Positions 5,826 to 17,469 of a stretch of 18,312 nucleotides of DNA are shown piece after piece. The notes under the pieces were generated by a model, which made no database searches, had not been told where the DNA came from, and saw only the letters and a list, made by a program, of their open reading frames with translations. Origin of the DNA: Clostridia bacterium (GTDB lineage Bacteria; UBA6262; WVXT01; JAUXBS01); assembly GCA_030618495.1 (NCBI GenBank), contig JAUXDE010000022.1, positions 1-18,312 on the forward strand, read 5' to 3'. Made by a program: the position numbers and the translations under genes. Position 1 is the stretch's first letter, and every line of letters begins with the position of its first letter.

Positions 5826-7040
5826 ATGTATAAAAAATACTATTTAAGGATAGTTAAGGTACTAATATTTCTGATAATCTTATTAGTTATTAATTCATCT
5901 GCTGAAGAACCTTCAAGATTATCATTGAGGGAGGTACTTAAGATTGCCTTTGATTCCAACTCAGAAGTGATAACAGCAAGGAAGGAATTAGAATCAGCAA
6001 AGGCAGGGATTATTTCAGCAAGGGCTATTAGTAATCCTGAGTTTGGCATTGAGTTTCGCCCTTCCGGTATAGAGAGTTCACTCAGCCAGGAACTGAGTAT
6101 TTTGGGCAAGCGGGGCTTAAGCCGCAGGATTGCTGATACTGGTAAGGAGATATCTGAATGCAATCTTGATTCGGTCTGGATGGAAGTATCTTTTGAAGTT
6201 AAGAAGGTATATTACCAGATATTACTTGCCGAGAAAAAGAAAGAGTTCTCTGTTGAGAGCCTGGAACTGGCAAGGAATTTCCTGGACAGGACTTCCCAGC
6301 GCTATAATGTGGGGAAGGTTCTTAAAAATGAACTTTTGCGTGCTGAAATTGAAGTGTTCCGGGCTCAGAATGAAATCATGCTCTCAGATAAAGAGATATC
6401 CTCCAATAAGGATAAACTGAACTTCTTATTCGGCAGGCCTTCTTATGAGGAATATGAATGTACTGATAAACTCGTATATTCTAAGAAAGAGTTGGATTTA
6501 GATACTCTTATTAAACAGGCATTAATGAAAAGAGCGGATATTAAGGCTAAAAAGTTGGAACTCAAGTCTTCAGGACTTGAACTTAAGTTAGCAAGAAGAG
6601 AAAGGCTTTCAAATCCAACATTCAGTCTTTTAGCAGACAGGGATACAGGACAGGATTTTGTGTTTGGCGCGGGAGTGGAGATGCCCCTTCCTCTATGGTA
6701 TAGAAATAAAGGGGAGATTTCTGCAGTTAAGAGTGAAGGCGAGAAAACAGAACATCAGATAAAATCTCTTAAGAACCGGATAGAATTAGAGGTTAAAGAG
6801 GTATATAGGGAAATTAAGTTAGCTGACAGGCAGGTGGCTTTAATGAAGAAATCCGTAAAGAAAGCAAGTGAACTGTTATCTCTTATAGAGGTCCAGTACG
6901 CTGAAGGGAAGACGACTTTTTTAAGTTACTTAGAGGCTTTAATGGTATATAGAGAAGCAAACCTGGATTATTTAGAAGCCATTCTGGATTACCGGGTAAA
7001 ATTAGCATTATTAGAAAATAGAACAGGAGGAGAATTATGA
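5826..7040 (+). CDS. TolC-family outer-membrane channel of a metal efflux system (CusC/CzcC type)
   Basis: A 404-residue protein with a signal peptide (residues 1-26, ending in NSSA). The rest shows two OEP repeats rich in amphipathic helices: the first starts LSLREVLKIAFDSNSEVITA with NPEFGIEFRPSG and LSQELSILGKRG, the second around residue 220 onward with RADIKAKKLELKSSGLELKLA and LSNPTFSLLADRD. The segments 'SNPEFGIEF' and 'GAGVEMPLPLWYRNKGEISA' are characteristic of CzcC-like proteins. It forms the trimeric exit duct across the outer membrane for the RND pump encoded downstream. AAAGGA precedes the ATG. Its stop overlaps the start of the His-rich lipoprotein gene (ATGA), which shows tight operon structure. 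No lipobox is seen, so it is not lipid-anchored. Confidence 0.9.
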   Translation: MYKKYYLRIVKVLIFLIILLVINSSAEEPSRLSLREVLKIAFDSNSEVITARKELESAKAGIISARAISNPEFGIEFRPSGIESSLSQELSILGKRGLSRRIADTGKEISECNLDSVWMEVSFEVKKVYYQILLAEKKKEFSVESLELARNFLDRTSQRYNVGKVLKNELLRAEIEVFRAQNEIMLSDKEISSNKDKLNFLFGRPSYEEYECTDKLVYSKKELDLDTLIKQALMKRADIKAKKLELKSSGLELKLARRERLSNPTFSLLADRDTGQDFVFGAGVEMPLPLWYRNKGEISAVKSEGEKTEHQIKSLKNRIELEVKEVYREIKLADRQVALMKKSVKKASELLSLIEVQYAEGKTTFLSYLEALMVYREANLDYLEAILDYRVKLALLENRTGGEL

Positions 7041-7183
7041 AGAAGATTAGTTTGTTTTTAATGGTAGTTGTGATCTTTGTTGTTGTGATAGGATTGTTTG
7101 CCGGATGCGCTGTGGAAGAGGAACACACACATGGGCAAAAAGAGCAGCATAGCTCACATGACGGGTGTAATCACGCTCATTAA
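7037..7183 (+). CDS. 48-residue His-rich lipoprotein within the efflux operon
   Basis: A tiny gene starting inside the stop of the TolC-type gene (ATGA at 7037-7040) with a strong AGGAGG site 7 bp upstream. Residues 1-23 are a lipoprotein signal with lipobox LFAGC, so Cys24 would be lipidated. The mature part is only 25 residues and holds six histidines and one further cysteine (HTHGQKEQHSSHDGCNHAH). It resembles the His-rich head of the adaptor protein encoded 12 bp downstream (HTDAHASHEGHDEESC), so it may be a metal-capture peptide anchored beside the pump, perhaps derived from a duplicated adaptor N-terminus. The function is inferred; the coupling and lipobox make it very likely to be a real gene. 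Confidence 0.78.
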   Translation: MKKISLFLMVVVIFVVVIGLFAGCAVEEEHTHGQKEQHSSHDGCNHAH

Positions 7184-7195
7184 AGGAGACAAGTA

Positions 7196-8173
7196 ATGAA
7201 AAGATTTCATTTGTTGATTATTTTGGTATGTATAGGTCTGTTTTTTGGATGTTCCGGTAAGAATGAACATGAGGGGTGTGAACATACCGATGCTCATGCT
7301 TCTCACGAAGGCCATGACGAGGAGAGTTGCGGTGAGGATGTGGTTGAAGTTTTTTCTCACTTCATGGAGTTGCTTGGTTTAAAGACAGAAAAGGTTTCCT
7401 TAAGGAACCTTAAGAAAACAATAACCATAGTAGGTGAGATAGCAAGGGACTTTGAGAAGCCGGTTCATATCACTTCCGATATAGATGGGAAGGTGGTGAA
7501 GCTGAAAGCCCGTTTAGGAGACCATCATGTGAAACGCGGTGAATCTCTTGCCGTTATTGAAGGCGAAGACGGCAGGACAAAGGAGATAACATCACCTTTA
7601 GGCTGTATGATAATAGGAGAGCATGTTGAGGAAGGGGAAGAGGTAAGCGCGGATACTTCTCTTTTTACAATGGCGGATATGTCTAAGTTAAAAGCCAGTT
7701 TTGATGTATACCAGGAAGACCTTGGTTACATCAGGCCCGGCCAGAGTATCAAGGTGGAAACATCGGTATCTCCCGGCAAACTGTATCCTGCAAAGATTTC
7801 GTTTATTTCCCCGATTGTTGACGGTAAGACCCGGGCTGTTAAGATAAGGGTTGATATAGATAACTTTGACTGTAGTCTGAAACTGGGGATGTTTCTGAAA
7901 GGATACATAACACATACCGGAGCCTCTAAGTTAATTACCATTCCCGGTTCGGCTGTACAGGTGTGGGAGGGGAAGAAGGTTGTATTCATTCCAATTTCTG
8001 AAGATAAATACAGGATGGTTGAGGTTGAACTTGGTTCCGGTGAAGGGGGATATATAGAAGTGGTTTCCGGGGTTGAGGTTGGCGATGAAGTCGTAAGTTC
8101 CGGTAGTTTTCATTTAAAGTCGGAATTAAGGAGGAGATCAGCCGGTGATACCGGTCATGGTCATGCGCATTAG
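7196..8173 (+). CDS. RND efflux periplasmic adaptor (CusB/CzcB type), His-rich
   Basis: A 325-residue membrane-fusion lipoprotein. Residues 1-18 are a signal with lipobox LFFGC (Cys19). Residues 25-50 form a His/Glu-rich metal-binding segment (HEGCEHTDAHASHEGHDEE). Then come a barrel-sandwich hybrid (HITSDIDGKVVKLKARLGDH, later SPLGCMIIGEHVEEGEEV), a beta-barrel domain (ADMSKLKASFDVYQEDLGYI, later YPAKISFISPIVDGKTRAV) and a membrane-proximal domain. The C-terminus is GHGHAH, a second His cluster. There is no long alpha-hairpin between the two halves of the lipoyl-type domain, so this is a short-hairpin adaptor. It bridges the RND pump and TolC-type channel. AAAGGAGA precedes the ATG, and the pump gene follows 9 bp later. 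Confidence 0.9.
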   Translation: MKRFHLLIILVCIGLFFGCSGKNEHEGCEHTDAHASHEGHDEESCGEDVVEVFSHFMELLGLKTEKVSLRNLKKTITIVGEIARDFEKPVHITSDIDGKVVKLKARLGDHHVKRGESLAVIEGEDGRTKEITSPLGCMIIGEHVEEGEEVSADTSLFTMADMSKLKASFDVYQEDLGYIRPGQSIKVETSVSPGKLYPAKISFISPIVDGKTRAVKIRVDIDNFDCSLKLGMFLKGYITHTGASKLITIPGSAVQVWEGKKVVFIPISEDKYRMVEVELGSGEGGYIEVVSGVEVGDEVVSSGSFHLKSELRRRSAGDTGHGHAH

Positions 8174-8182
8174 GAGCACCAT

Positions 8183-11100
8183 ATGATTAAAAAAATAATA
8201 GAGTTTGGATTTAAAAACAGGTTCTTGGTGATAATAGCTTTTGTGGGTATATGTTTGGGGGGTATAATGTCCCTGTCAAACCTGCCCATAGACGCCTTCC
8301 CTGACATCAGTCCCAACATGGTGCAGGTGTTCGCAGAGGTCAACGGCATGGCTGCCGAAGAGGTTGAGCAGTTAGTTACCAGGCCGGTAGAACTGTCCAT
8401 GATGGGCATGCGGGGGGTAAAGAGTATCCGTTCGTTATCGTCTTTCGGGCTTTCCACCGTTAAGGTATACTTTGAAGACAACCTGGACATATATTTCACG
8501 CGGCAGTTGGTGTTTGAGAGGCTCGGCAGCGCTGAAGAGGGCATTCCCGAAGGCATAGATATGTCTCACGGCATTGAAATGGGTGCCATAGCATCGGGAA
8601 TGGGTAAGATTCTTACTTATTATATTAAGGGGGATGAATATGATACCACACAGCTGCGTACCATGCAGGAGTGGATTATTAAGCCGGCCCTGCAGTCTGT
8701 CTCTGGCGTTGCGGAGGTTATAAGTTTAGGAGGGCATATAAAGCAGTTCCGGGTGGACGTATCACCGTATAAACTACTGCGCTATGATGTTACTATAAAT
8801 GAAGTAATTGAAGCGGTAAGGGAGAACAACCTCAATACGGGCGCGGGTTTACTGAAGAATTATTCACAGGAATGGATTATAAGGAGTCTCGGGCTTGTTA
8901 AGGATGTTTCTGATATTGAAAACATAGTCCTGCGGTCATACCGGGGAAGCCCGGTATACCTCAAGGACGTTGCGGATATAAGCATAAGTCAGGCGATAAG
9001 GAGAGGGATTGCCTCTATGGATGGCGGTAAGGAAATCGTAGTGGGAGGCATATACAAGATTCATGGAGAGAACTCCTTTAAGGTTATAAGCCGCCTTAAT
9101 AAGCAGATGGATAAGATTAATAAAATACTCCCTTCAGGAGTAAGCATAGTACCGTTTTATGATCAGGGAATACTGGTTAAGGAAAGCATAAAGACCGTAA
9201 GGAATGCTCTCGGGCTGGGTTTGATACTGGTATGTATAGTTCTTTTTGTCTTTCTTGGCAAACTGAAGAACGCCCTGGTGGTGGTACTGTCACTGCCGTT
9301 TTCAATGTTGTTTGCGTTAATCATGTTCCGGGTTCTTCATATTCCAGGGGATTTGATATCCTTAGGAGGGCTGGCAATAGCGCTGGGTATGATAGTGGAC
9401 GCCAGCATCATCATGGTTGAGAAGATACATACTCTGAATATGGAATCTTCTGAATCTCTTTCAATGAAGGATGTTGTCATAGCCGCCGCGCAGGAGGTCG
9501 GCAGGCCGATGTTCTTTGCCATTGCCATTATTATCATGGTGTTTCTGCCAATATGGACTCTACAGGGTGTGGAAGGGAAGATGTTCAGGCCGCAGGCGTA
9601 CTCAGTAACTATTGCCATGTTAGGTTCGTTGATATACGCCATGCTCCTTGCTCCCATCCTTTACAGCCTCACCGTGAAGAACAGAAAGCCATCCAGAGAT
9701 AAGAGCGATAAGTTCATGCAGGGACTGCATGAGCGCTATAAATCAATGCTCCAGTTCCTTCTTCCAAGGCGTAAGAAGGTAGCCATAGTGACTGCCTGTC
9801 TGCTGCTTTTAGGCATAGGCGTGTTCTTTAACCTGGGTAAGGTGTTCGTACCCACCCTTCATGAGGGGAGCATAAACGTGCTGGCTCACATGGACCCCAG
9901 CATAGCCCTTGATGAAGCAGGCAGGGTTGCCGCAAAACTTGAAGAGGAATTGAGTACGTTCAGCGAGGTCAGGCAGGTAATCTCCGAGATAGGCTACGGG
10001 GACGTGGGGCCCCACGTCCACCATACCGACTACGCCTGTATAACCCTTGACCTTTATCCCAGGCATACGTGGAAGGCCGGGGGCACGCAGGAGCAGTTAG
10101 TTTCAAGGATGAGTGAGAAACTTAAAGGCTTCCCCGGGGTGTCCATAAGTTTCTCCCAGCCGATCCAGCACGAAGTGGATGAACTGGTCGGTGGGGCAGG
10201 GGCACAGGTGGCGGCAAAACTGTTTGGTTACGACATGGAAGTGCTTAAACAGAAAGCTGCGGAAATTGAAGGAGTTCTCTCCGGTATAGAAGGGGTCGCC
10301 GACCTCAGGGTGGAACAGGTAAGCGGTCAGGCGCACCTGCATATAGAGATAGACCGTAAAGAGATGGCCCGGCAGGGTATAAACATATCAAGGGTCCAGG
10401 AAATAATAAGGAGCAGTGTGGGGGGCATAAGGGCGGGCAAGGTATTTGAAGGTGAAAAGTCCTTTGATATATTCGTAAGGTTTGAGGAGTCCCACCGAAA
10501 CGATGTTGAAGCCATAAAGGATGTGTTGATATACGGCAGTGACGGTAACAGGGTACCCCTGTCGCGCATTGCAGAAATCAGGCTTGTAGAAGGGTTCAGG
10601 CAGATAAGCCACGAAAACGGCCAGAGGTATATATCCGTACTGAGCAACGTAAGGGGAAGGGACGTCGGGGGATTCGTTGAGGAAGCGCAGAAGGAAATAG
10701 AAGAATCAGTAACCCTTCCCCCCGGTTACTCTATTTCGTGGGGCGGGCAGTTTGAACTACAGCAGGCGGCCAACAGGAGGTTGATGGTTGTAATACCGAT
10801 TACACTGTTCATTATACTGTTCCTGCTTTACAGTTTCTTTAAATCATTCAAAGAAACGCTCCTCATTGCCCTCAACATACCTTTAGCCCTGGTGGGGGGA
10901 GTCTTTGCCCTGGCAATTACCGGCCAGGACCTGAGTATCCCCGCAACTATTGGTTTTATTGCTCTTTTCGGTATAGCCCTGCAGGACGGATTGGTGTTGA
11001 TATCCCGTTTCAAGTATCTGCACGCAAAGGGTTTAGGCTTGAAAGATGGGATAATTGAAGGTTCTCTTTCAAAATTGAGGCCTGTTTTAATGACTACAGT

Positions 11101-11257
11101 GACCACTGCATTCGGATTAATACCATTAATTATGTCTACCAGTCCGGGTTCTGAGATACAGAAACCACTGGCTATTGTAGTTGTGGGAGGGATAATATCA
11201 TCAACGGTACTGACCCTGTTTGTAATACCCACACTATACGGGTGGGTGAAGGAATAG
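8183..11257 (+). CDS. Heavy-metal RND efflux pump (CusA/CzcA family)
   Basis: A 1024-residue inner-membrane proton-driven exporter with the usual RND plan: N-terminal helix (FGFKNRFLVIIAFVGI), large periplasmic loops at about 35-335 and 555-865, and two bundles of membrane helices. The PxDAxPD motif (NLPIDAFPDIS) and FELQQAANRRL are typical of the HME group. In helix 4, GLAIALGMIVDASIIMVEK places Asp406 and Glu413 in the proton path; the position of CzcA Asp402 is Ala400, as in CusA. The C-terminal half is CzcA-like (KLRPVLMTTVTT instead of the CusA RPKAMT). The CusA Met triad is not recognisable; instead His611/His613/His614 (GPHVHHTDY) lie in the matching cleft segment. The metal is therefore uncertain. 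The size fits the family (about 1020-1050). Confidence 0.93.
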   Translation: MIKKIIEFGFKNRFLVIIAFVGICLGGIMSLSNLPIDAFPDISPNMVQVFAEVNGMAAEEVEQLVTRPVELSMMGMRGVKSIRSLSSFGLSTVKVYFEDNLDIYFTRQLVFERLGSAEEGIPEGIDMSHGIEMGAIASGMGKILTYYIKGDEYDTTQLRTMQEWIIKPALQSVSGVAEVISLGGHIKQFRVDVSPYKLLRYDVTINEVIEAVRENNLNTGAGLLKNYSQEWIIRSLGLVKDVSDIENIVLRSYRGSPVYLKDVADISISQAIRRGIASMDGGKEIVVGGIYKIHGENSFKVISRLNKQMDKINKILPSGVSIVPFYDQGILVKESIKTVRNALGLGLILVCIVLFVFLGKLKNALVVVLSLPFSMLFALIMFRVLHIPGDLISLGGLAIALGMIVDASIIMVEKIHTLNMESSESLSMKDVVIAAAQEVGRPMFFAIAIIIMVFLPIWTLQGVEGKMFRPQAYSVTIAMLGSLIYAMLLAPILYSLTVKNRKPSRDKSDKFMQGLHERYKSMLQFLLPRRKKVAIVTACLLLLGIGVFFNLGKVFVPTLHEGSINVLAHMDPSIALDEAGRVAAKLEEELSTFSEVRQVISEIGYGDVGPHVHHTDYACITLDLYPRHTWKAGGTQEQLVSRMSEKLKGFPGVSISFSQPIQHEVDELVGGAGAQVAAKLFGYDMEVLKQKAAEIEGVLSGIEGVADLRVEQVSGQAHLHIEIDRKEMARQGINISRVQEIIRSSVGGIRAGKVFEGEKSFDIFVRFEESHRNDVEAIKDVLIYGSDGNRVPLSRIAEIRLVEGFRQISHENGQRYISVLSNVRGRDVGGFVEEAQKEIEESVTLPPGYSISWGGQFELQQAANRRLMVVIPITLFIILFLLYSFFKSFKETLLIALNIPLALVGGVFALAITGQDLSIPATIGFIALFGIALQDGLVLISRFKYLHAKGLGLKDGIIEGSLSKLRPVLMTTVTTAFGLIPLIMSTSPGSEIQKPLAIVVVGGIISSTVLTLFVIPTLYGWVKE

Positions 11258-16210: not shown

Positions 16211-16239
16211 TTGACAAAATGATGAGCTTATGGTATATT
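16211..16239 (+). promoter_or_regulatory. Promoter of the mini-MerR array
   Basis: TTGACA (16211-16216), 17-bp spacer, TATATT (16234-16239). Eleven of twelve consensus bases match. The start near 16246 sits at the edge of the first TAAAGT-N9-ACTTTA dyad, so a bound protein would block initiation or clearance. Confidence 0.78.
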
Positions 16240-16246
16240 ACAAACA

Positions 16247-16267
16247 TAAAGTATGCTGTTTACTTTA
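16247..16267. promoter_or_regulatory. MerR-array operator, site 1
   Basis: TAAAGT (16247-16252) and ACTTTA (16262-16267) with a 9-bp spacer, preceded by AAACA as at the other sites. It overlaps the start of transcription of the strong promoter just upstream. Confidence 0.65.
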
Positions 16268-16295
16268 GGATCCTTCCTAGGAGGATTATTTGAGA

Positions 16296-16373
16296 ATGCA
16301 GTTAAGCTGTTTAGTCTATGCTTTTTTATGTAGTAGTGATATATGCAGGGAATACTTATATCGCTATAAATAG
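16296..16373 (+). CDS. 25-codon leader ORF abutting a terminator
   Basis: A short ORF beginning MQLSCLVYAF, with three cysteines, and ending in YLYRYK. AGGAGG (16279-16284) lies 11 bp before the ATG; an in-frame TTG at 16290 would have better spacing (5 bp). Part of the ribosome site can pair with ATCCT at 16270-16274. The stop codon (16371-16373) is directly followed by the left arm of an intrinsic terminator (16374), so a terminating ribosome would cover that arm. This is the geometry of a leader peptide that controls attenuation. It could instead be a small functional peptide or a remnant of a duplicated gene. Confidence 0.5.
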   Translation: MQLSCLVYAFLCSSDICREYLYRYK

Positions 16374-16414
16374 ATCGGGTGTGCTAACTAATGTCGGCAC
16401 AGCCGATTTTTTTT
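16374..16414 (+). terminator. Intrinsic terminator (possible attenuator) ahead of the mini-MerR genes
   Basis: ATCGGGTGTGC (16374-16384) pairs with GCACAGCCGAT (16397-16407), 10 of 11 positions matching, and eight T residues follow (16407-16414). It would end a transcript of about 170 nt started at 16246. Confidence 0.85.
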
Positions 16415-16425
16415 GGTGTAAAACA

Positions 16426-16446
16426 TAAAGTAAGCAGTAGACTTTA
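16426..16446. promoter_or_regulatory. MerR-array operator, site 2
   Basis: TAAAGT-N9-ACTTTA inside AAAACATAAAGTAAGCAGTA. It follows a T8 run and GG, as site 4 does. TTGGTG (16413-16418) and TAGACT (16438-16443) stand 19 bp apart across it, the long spacing used by MerR activators; the boxes themselves are weak. Confidence 0.65.
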
Positions 16447-16465
16447 ATTATTTAAGGTGGCAACC

Positions 16466-16624
16466 ATGAGAACAGTTAAATACAAAAAGATGGAAATGGT
16501 ACGAGCAGGAAGTTGTTTAGAGGTTCAGTGTTTTTTTTTGAATCAAAACCTGAAGCAAGAAGTAGACTTTATGTTTAATCTATGTGGGTTGAATGAATCC
16601 AGAACGAAAGGAGAAAGAAAATGA
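16466..16624 (+). CDS. 52-residue ORF coupled to the first mini-MerR gene
   Basis: An ORF with a fair ribosome site (AAGGTGG, 5 bp before the ATG) whose TGA overlaps the start of the next gene (ATGA at 16621-16624). The product begins MRTVKYKKMEMVRAGSCLEV, contains a phenylalanine run encoded in a T9 tract, and ends in a basic tail (SRTKGERK). It shows no similarity to the MerR proteins. It contains operator site 3, so part of its sequence is constrained by the DNA site. I do not recognise it; it may be a coupling ORF instead of a folded protein. Confidence 0.45.
   Translation: MRTVKYKKMEMVRAGSCLEVQCFFLNQNLKQEVDFMFNLCGLNESRTKGERK
16551..16571. promoter_or_regulatory. MerR-array operator, site 3 (diverged)
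   Basis: TGAAGC-N9-ACTTTA, aligned with site 2 over AAAACxTxAAGxAAGxAGTA. It also follows a T9 run; TTGAAT (16539-16544) and TAGACT (16564-16569) are 19 bp apart. It lies inside the 52-codon ORF. Confidence 0.55.
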
Positions 16625-16863
16625 CAAAGAAATTCAGGCTGGAAAACGGGTTGTTGAAGATTGGGGAGATTGCAAGGGAATCGGGGATTAAAGAGTCAAC
16701 AATAAGGTACTACACAGAAGTTGGCCTGGTAAATGTTGCTGAAACGACAGAAAGCGGTTACAGGCTTTATGATAAGGATGAAACAGTGAGAGTGCTTAAG
16801 ACGATAAGAGAAGTGAATTCAAGTAGATTGACTCTTTCGCAGATAGTTGCTCAGATGGCGTAG
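16621..16863 (+). CDS. Mini-MerR DNA-binding protein 1
   Basis: An 80-residue protein that is only a MerR-type winged helix. LLKIGEIARESGIKESTIRY is the helix-turn-helix, YTEVGL the conserved turn, and GYRLYDKDETVRVLKTIREV the wing and following helix. MerR proteins normally have 110-150 residues or more, with a dimerisation coiled coil and a C-terminal effector site; here the protein ends after a short helix (LTLSQIVAQMA), so it has no effector-binding domain. It carries an N-terminal extension MTKKFRLENG shared with the next gene. AAAGGAG precedes the ATG. It overlaps the 52-codon ORF by 4 bp. DNA similarity to the next gene is high, which points to tandem duplication. Confidence 0.88.
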   Translation: MTKKFRLENGLLKIGEIARESGIKESTIRYYTEVGLVNVAETTESGYRLYDKDETVRVLKTIREVNSSRLTLSQIVAQMA

Positions 16864-16891
16864 TGTAAGAGATTTTTTTTGGACTAAAACA

Positions 16892-16912
16892 TGAAGTAGG
16901 CAGTAGACTTTA
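16892..16912. promoter_or_regulatory. MerR-array operator, site 4
   Basis: TGAAGT-N9-ACTTTA within AAAACATGAAGTAGGCAGTA, preceded by a T8 run and GG exactly as at site 2, but without the terminator hairpin. TTGGAC and TAGACT lie 19 bp apart across it. It is 23 bp upstream of the second mini-MerR start. Confidence 0.65.
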
Positions 16913-16934: not shown

Positions 16935-17177
16935 ATGACAAAGAGATTCAGATTGGAGAATGGACTGTTGAAGATTGGGGAGATTGCAAGGGAATCGGGA
17001 GTAAGGCAATCCACTATCAGGCACTACACTGAAGTGGGGTTGTTAAGCATTGCGGAAACGATGGAAAGCGGTTACAGGCTTTATGACAGGAATGAGACGC
17101 TCAGAAGGATTGGCTTGATTAAGGAAATCAGTACAAGCCGGCAGAGTTTGAACCAGATAAAGACTGCATTGGCATGA
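16935..17177 (+). CDS. Mini-MerR DNA-binding protein 2
   Basis: An 80-residue near-duplicate of the previous protein: the extension MTKRFRLENG, the helix-turn-helix LLKIGEIARESGVRQSTIRH, the turn YTEVGL and the wing GYRLYDRNETLRRIGLIKEI are conserved. Differences cluster in the recognition helix (VRQSTIRH against IKESTIRY) and the last helix (QSLNQIKTALA), so DNA targets or partners may differ slightly. There is no effector domain. AAAGGAG precedes the ATG, and its own copy of the dyad lies 23 bp upstream, suggesting local autoregulation or a response to its paralogue. The 46-bp gap to the third gene contains no dyad. Confidence 0.88.
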   Translation: MTKRFRLENGLLKIGEIARESGVRQSTIRHYTEVGLLSIAETMESGYRLYDRNETLRRIGLIKEISTSRQSLNQIKTALA

Positions 17178-17223: not shown

Positions 17224-17469
17224 ATGTCGGAGTTGATAAAAATAGGGAAGATGGCTGAACTGGCGGGGGTAAGGATTTCCACTATAAGGTATTACACGGA
17301 CATAGGGCTGGTTAAGGTAGCTGATACTACACCGGGAGGCCAGAAGCTTTTTGACAGCGAGGATACTCTTAAGAGGATACAGTTAGTGAAGAAGATAGGC
17401 AGGCAGAGATTGTCTCTTGATACCATAAAGAACGTAATAGATGACCACAAGGATGCGGAACTGAAGTAG
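17224..17469 (+). CDS. Mini-MerR DNA-binding protein 3
   Basis: An 81-residue MerR-type winged helix, more distant from the first two and lacking the RFRLENG extension. It starts MSELIKIGKMAELAGVRIST, then has IRYYTDIGLVKVADTTPGGQ, LFDSEDTLKRIQLVKKIGRQ and a slightly longer charged end (IDDHKDAELK). There is no effector or coiled-coil domain. The GYRLYD of the other two is changed to GQKLFD. AAAGGAG precedes the ATG. It ends 12 bp before the start of the secreted DUF2341 gene, so it is the regulator closest to the structural gene and probably co-transcribed with it. Heterodimers among the three are possible. Confidence 0.87.
   Translation: MSELIKIGKMAELAGVRISTIRYYTDIGLVKVADTTPGGQKLFDSEDTLKRIQLVKKIGRQRLSLDTIKNVIDDHKDAELK

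Follow-up and report, generated by a model that had tools for sequence, protein, structure and literature searches.

The window (the whole stretch of 18,312 nucleotides that was analysed) carries towards its 3′ end a promoter, a short leader closed by an intrinsic terminator, three short MerR genes in tandem and a large gene cut by the end of the contig. A 21-bp dyad of the form TAAAGT-N9-ACTTTA occurs in this region at 16247, 16426, 16551 (a degenerate copy) and 16892. The features are, in their order along the DNA:

16211..16239, plus strand: sigma-70-type promoter, TTGACA at 16211 and TATATT at 16234-16239 with a spacer of 17, 11/12 consensus positions and an extended TG ahead of the −10 (consensus match)
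16247..16267, no strand: dyad 1, TAAAGTATGCTGTTTACTTTA, where transcription is expected to start, immediately 3′ of the −10 (repeat comparison)
16269..16287, plus strand: predicted RNA hairpin of 8 bp holding AGGAGG (16279-16284) (fold)
16290..16373, plus strand: leader ORF with stop TAG at 16371-16373, coding status doubtful (non-coding codon usage)
16374..16414, plus strand: intrinsic terminator, stem of 10/11 pairs and T8 (16407-16414) (fold and uniform finder)
16426..16446, no strand: dyad 2, TAAAGTAAGCAGTAGACTTTA, 11 nt 3′ of the T8 (repeat comparison)
16457..16624, plus strand: second small ORF, 55 aa from GTG 16457 or 52 aa from ATG 16466 (non-coding codon usage)
16531..16571, no strand: T9 (16531-16539), 11 nt and dyad 3 (16551-16571), not preceded by a GC-rich stem
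16621..16863, plus strand: short MerR 1, 80 aa, DNA-binding domain only (PF13411, 1.4e-13)
16873..16912, no strand: T8 (16873-16880), 11 nt and dyad 4 (16892-16912), the copy nearest to the element of the relatives
16935..17177, plus strand: short MerR 2, 80 aa, 67% identical to MerR 1
17224..17469, plus strand: short MerR 3, 81 aa
17482..18312, plus strand: large secreted or surface protein with DUF2341, cut by the contig end (PF10102, 1.8e-18)

The MerR winged-helix DNA-binding domain (MerR_1) was found above the Pfam cut-off in all three short genes. The match covers residues ~6-79 of proteins of 80-81 aa, and the C-terminal dimerisation/effector part is absent; matches to the ZntR, CueR and MerR families of NCBIfam are far below cut-off. 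The stop codon of the second small ORF overlaps the start of MerR 1 (ATGA), and the T9 tract and dyad 3 lie inside this ORF. The N-terminus of the DUF2341 protein appears signal-peptide-like by eye; the comparison with the contigs of other DUF2341 genes covered ORFs. Elsewhere in the window we note an operon for an outer-membrane efflux protein, an adaptor and an RND transporter, by eye of the heavy-metal efflux type (5826-11257), and on the minus strand (944-1632) an ORF with the Fic/Doc-like motif HPFQNGNKR which adjoins a small helix-turn-helix-like ORF, together toxin-antitoxin-like by eye.

The near-consensus promoter had been listed in an earlier sequence-only reading of this DNA and is borne out. 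It matches TTGACA-N15-GGTATANT, the perfect core of a lineage-wide promoter class with 10 matches in the genome, while the reversed pattern used as a control gives 0-1 matches in any of six genomes. Five other members of the class were inspected and lie 27-290 nt 5′ of an ORF without intervening terminator, so that among the inspected members the window promoter is the only one leading into a terminator. In this terminator a GC-rich stem is directly followed by the T-run, as is required of an intrinsic terminator. The arms ATCGGGTGTGC (16374-16384) and GCACAGCCGAT (16397-16407) form 10 of 11 pairs as described earlier, and the 43-nt hairpin has a predicted energy of −20.2 kcal/mol (z −5.8, equalled by 0/200 shuffles) and ranks 5/39 by score when one uniform finder is applied to 422 kb of this genome. 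Judged by the genome counts against controls, the folding shuffles and this rank, promoter and terminator stand well above chance; the contact between leader ORF and stem, judged by shuffles of the leader, does so modestly. The search of the whole window against Rfam 15 gave no family at the gathering threshold, nor did the leaders of the window, L007, L008 and L010; an identity with MicC was rejected (24.5 bits against a cut-off of 90, E 0.75).

The dyads that flank the terminator and the MerR genes had been missed in the earlier reading. Dyads 2, 3 and 4 each begin exactly 11 nt past a run of 8-9 T. Allowing up to two mismatches, the dyad is confined to this locus in the 1.69-Mb genome (5 matches at 4 sites) and to the homologous locus in G002 and G005 (2 sites each). 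The copies of the repeat in the window diverge by 15-31%, and the stemless T-tracts before dyads 3 and 4 may be remnants of duplication. MerR copies elsewhere in these genomes, for example between mraZ- and mraW-like genes, are without the dyad. From their position we regard the flanking dyads as likely MerR sites.

As an observation in its own right, a short MerR gene without dyad lies between genes that are mraZ- and mraW-like by eye (L048:2917-3144 and L043:5658-5882), i.e. a regulator in a division gene cluster, and was found in this genome and in a genus mate; in G001 the MerR gene of the mraZ-mraW region is followed downstream, after ~0.7 kb, by a class A RNase P RNA (L009:2380-2699, minus strand). 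Several MerR genes in G002 and G005 are adjoined by other repeated intergenic elements (AGGAGTAGCAGAC..GTCTGCGT and CGACGAATAAGGAG..), located at L044 ~9590-9660 and, in L052 and L054, upstream of the respective MerR gene.

The layout recurs in the phylum, which is represented by six genomes. Four loci in three other genomes (G002:C45, G005:C96, G003:C144 and G005:C46) share the order of leader, terminator, T7-8, 11 nt, dyad and MerR gene(s) and, where the contig of the relative continues, have next a long secreted-looking ORF with a signal-like start. The element of T-tract and dyad can be aligned across all loci, and the distance of 11 nt is also present in the aligned copies of the relatives. 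The region of promoter and leader has no DNA similarity between the window and the relatives. The leaders of the relatives are of two types, both without sequence relation to the window leader, and the layout is therefore seen in three separate instances. The terminators and T-tract of the relatives are kept through changes in the stem (G-U to G-C in G002/G005, G-U to A-U in G003/G005), and the terminators are doubled or nested. All leaders fold far better than their shuffles (z −3.9 to −6.4); after removal of the terminators the values are −1.7 to −3.2, so most of the excess is due to the terminators. DNA searches of the six genomes with two leaders as query returned the known loci and short chance or promoter-only matches, and a wider scan of genome contigs returned distant MerR proteins only. 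A candidate leader copy at G001:C120 was rejected: the match is the promoter for an ArsR-like gene, behind which comes a dnaK-like gene.

In G002 and G005:C96 the dyad is also present in reversed orientation just 5′ of the leader promoter. Here it precedes the −35, whereas in the window it follows the −10, and its effect can thus not be equal in both. This placement also excludes there the long-range pairing of dyads 1 and 2 that is predicted for a read-through RNA of the window. For the leaders of the G003 type no promoter-near dyad was found, and the promoter is weaker (9/12).

Between the T-tract and the MerR genes no site scoring more than 8/12 was found at any of the five loci, compared to a score of 12 for the leader promoter (with the TG bonus; window and G002). 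The simplest reading is that read-through supplies the operon, and the recurring layout together with the lack of promoter-like sequence downstream partly upholds the notion of a terminated leader gating a MerR operon. We tentatively favor, as a good possibility, that a conserved gate precedes an operon which regulates itself. The strong promoter at 16211 would make a leader of ~170 nt that ends by default at the terminator (16374-16414). The three MerR genes and the DUF2341 gene, which are without a recognisable promoter of their own, would be supplied by those polymerases that read through, and the MerR proteins of the operon may, judging from the position of the dyads, bind to them. Bound to dyad 1 over the start site, MerR could damp initiation; bound to dyad 2, 11 nt past the T8, it could meet the polymerase in the T-tract as a putative roadblock and favor its release. 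Termination might be lowered by translation, by release of MerR from the dyad or by some further factor.

A polymerase paused in the T-tract has a downstream reach of ~18-20 nt ahead of its active site. The dyad falls within this reach, and a bound MerR protein would accordingly be met there; that this encounter is coupled to termination we infer. The new feature of interest is the conserved spacing between terminator and presumed operator. A more specific version of the gate, in which a short MerR protein at the dyad acts as a roadblock and holds the polymerase in the T-tract for release by the hairpin, so that the terminator of the operon tightens itself, with the stemless copies within the operon acting more weakly, appears to us improbable at present. 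Proteins bound to DNA can stall and release polymerase, and the LacI, CcpA and CodY operator roadblocks resemble our case in that a regulator sitting on the DNA ahead of the polymerase can pause it and lead to its release (PMC4132739). In contrast to these, the presumed operator is here fixed 11 nt past the T-tract of an intrinsic terminator. To our knowledge, within the literature we consulted, no roadblock with an operator at such a fixed distance from a terminator T-tract has been described.

The main rival, which we consider rather unlikely, is that two independent units adjoin each other, namely a gene for a small RNA or small protein, equipped with promoter and terminator, and a MerR operon with a separate MerR-dependent start of transcription at dyad 2, the terminator serving as insulation. 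Such a promoter, far from consensus, could exist and would count against the gate. The terminators are indeed strong, those of the relatives being doubled or nested, copies of the T-tract and dyad also precede MerR 1 and MerR 2, and the dyads could mark a MerR-type promoter, as frames of the form TTG-N19-TAGACT reach 7-8/12 when compared to TTGACA/TATAAT. Against this stands the 8/12 ceiling between terminator and MerR genes at all five loci. In MerR-type promoters the center of the dyad lies in the middle of the spacer, whereas here it adjoins the putative −10, and by our reading of the alignment the conserved TTTAA beside the dyad is explained by an extended dyad. The autoregulated operons of MerR, CueR, ZntR and SoxR share with this locus the DNA-binding domain PF13411 and dyads beside the regulator's own genes; they differ from the tandem 80-aa proteins without effector domain that are found here downstream of a terminator and without a promoter of 19-20-bp spacer near consensus.

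A further alternative is a ribosome-controlled attenuator, in which translation of the leader up to the UAG would mask the left arm of the stem and let the polymerase enter the MerR genes. This was in essence the proposal of the sequence-only reading, with the peptide as a sensor of cysteine supply or redox state. Its elements are in place: the ORF of 25 codons (ATG 16296, 11 nt past AGGAGG; alternatively 27 aa from TTG 16290, 5 nt past it) has a ribosome site and ends at the terminator, with the first base of the stem directly following the stop codon. In dinucleotide shuffles of the leader an ORF of at least 24 codons ending at most 3 nt from the stem occurs in 2.4%; this falls to 0.04% if a Shine-Dalgarno sequence, a criterion chosen post hoc, is also demanded, and without that demand an ORF end near the hairpin has a chance of ~1-7%, according to the length and tolerance set. 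In G002 and G005:C96 the G of the stop codon TAG is the first base of the stem, and the open frame of the G003 type ends in a hairpin loop. The blocking of the hairpin by a ribosome at the stop is physically possible: the intrinsic terminator tR2 of E. coli is disabled by a ribosome finishing a few nt upstream of it, termination falling from ~90% to <10% once the stop was moved to 5 nt upstream (PMC4824070), and in the pyrBI leader a ribosome near the terminator suppresses termination (PMC5021804). The pyrBI (pyrL) attenuator of E. coli is also built in the same order, with a promoter, a leader ORF that overlaps or adjoins an intrinsic terminator, and an operon downstream (PMC5021804, PMC4824070). 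It differs in that the leader ORF of the window is without sign of coding, and that the terminator of the window is followed by a dyad resembling a protein site, by MerR regulators and by a surface protein.

It is the coding status that makes us doubt this attenuator strongly. The codon usage of the window ORF (z −1.25) is below that of its own shuffles and of the other two frames, compared to z 3.1 for MerR1 and 4.5 for MerR3; among the leader ORFs G005:C96 alone reaches z 2.3. Between the leader ORFs of G002 and G005:C96 (62/68 aa) 14 codons differ, 12 of them nonsynonymously and 2 synonymously, with 5 changes per codon position and hence no excess at the third, and within the G003 pair 9 codons differ (7 nonsynonymous, 2 synonymous). 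Frame-restoring indels between the leader ORFs of G002 and G005 were rejected, as the alignment is ungapped there and gives no coding signal. The conserved first part of the G003-type frame has no ordinary start codon, the leader peptides share no sequence, and neither the window ORF nor the 62/68-aa ORFs have a match in Pfam or NCBIfam. Codon usage, synonymous bias and conservation thus all speak against a coding leader, the leaders compared being distant ones. In the window AGGAGG is moreover predicted to be sequestered by pairing with ATCCT (16270-16274), which agrees with the partial pairing noted earlier, and the three Cys are scattered over the 25 codons without forming a run of control codons. 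A strong antiterminator was rejected as well, since for the left arm only a weak, G-U-rich alternative pairing is predicted.

By these measures the tiny leader peptide is not convincing as a genuine protein, and the proposed sensing of cysteine or redox state finds no footing in them. Sensing by the peptide is unlikely; a ribosome translating as far as the stem would suppress the terminator even if the ORF had no meaning (PMC4824070). What holds of the earlier proposal is the terminated leader before MerR genes, with its layout at four further loci, and what does not is the peptide as sensor. The comparison with relatives, which that reading had suggested, divides in the same way: pairing in the stem is kept through changes, and conservation at the level of codons is absent. 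The relatives thereby resemble the case in which the terminator is kept and the ORF is not, which had been named as speaking against a translated gate, their leaders not being close relatives of the window leader. Least probable is a remnant without regulatory role, in which the terminator would be left over from an upstream gene since lost and the T-tracts and dyads would have been scattered by duplication. This would fit the stemless internal copies, the divergence of the repeat copies and the dissimilar upstream region; it is opposed by the four other loci, which repeat the arrangement of leader, terminator, T-tract and dyad and have kept the pairing.

If the proposed gate before a self-regulated MerR operon holds true, a small and little-sampled phylum would control large secreted proteins by means of a terminator which a regulator of its own is able to strengthen. 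Attenuation and roadblock, two textbook devices, would then be joined in one short element of fixed spacing.
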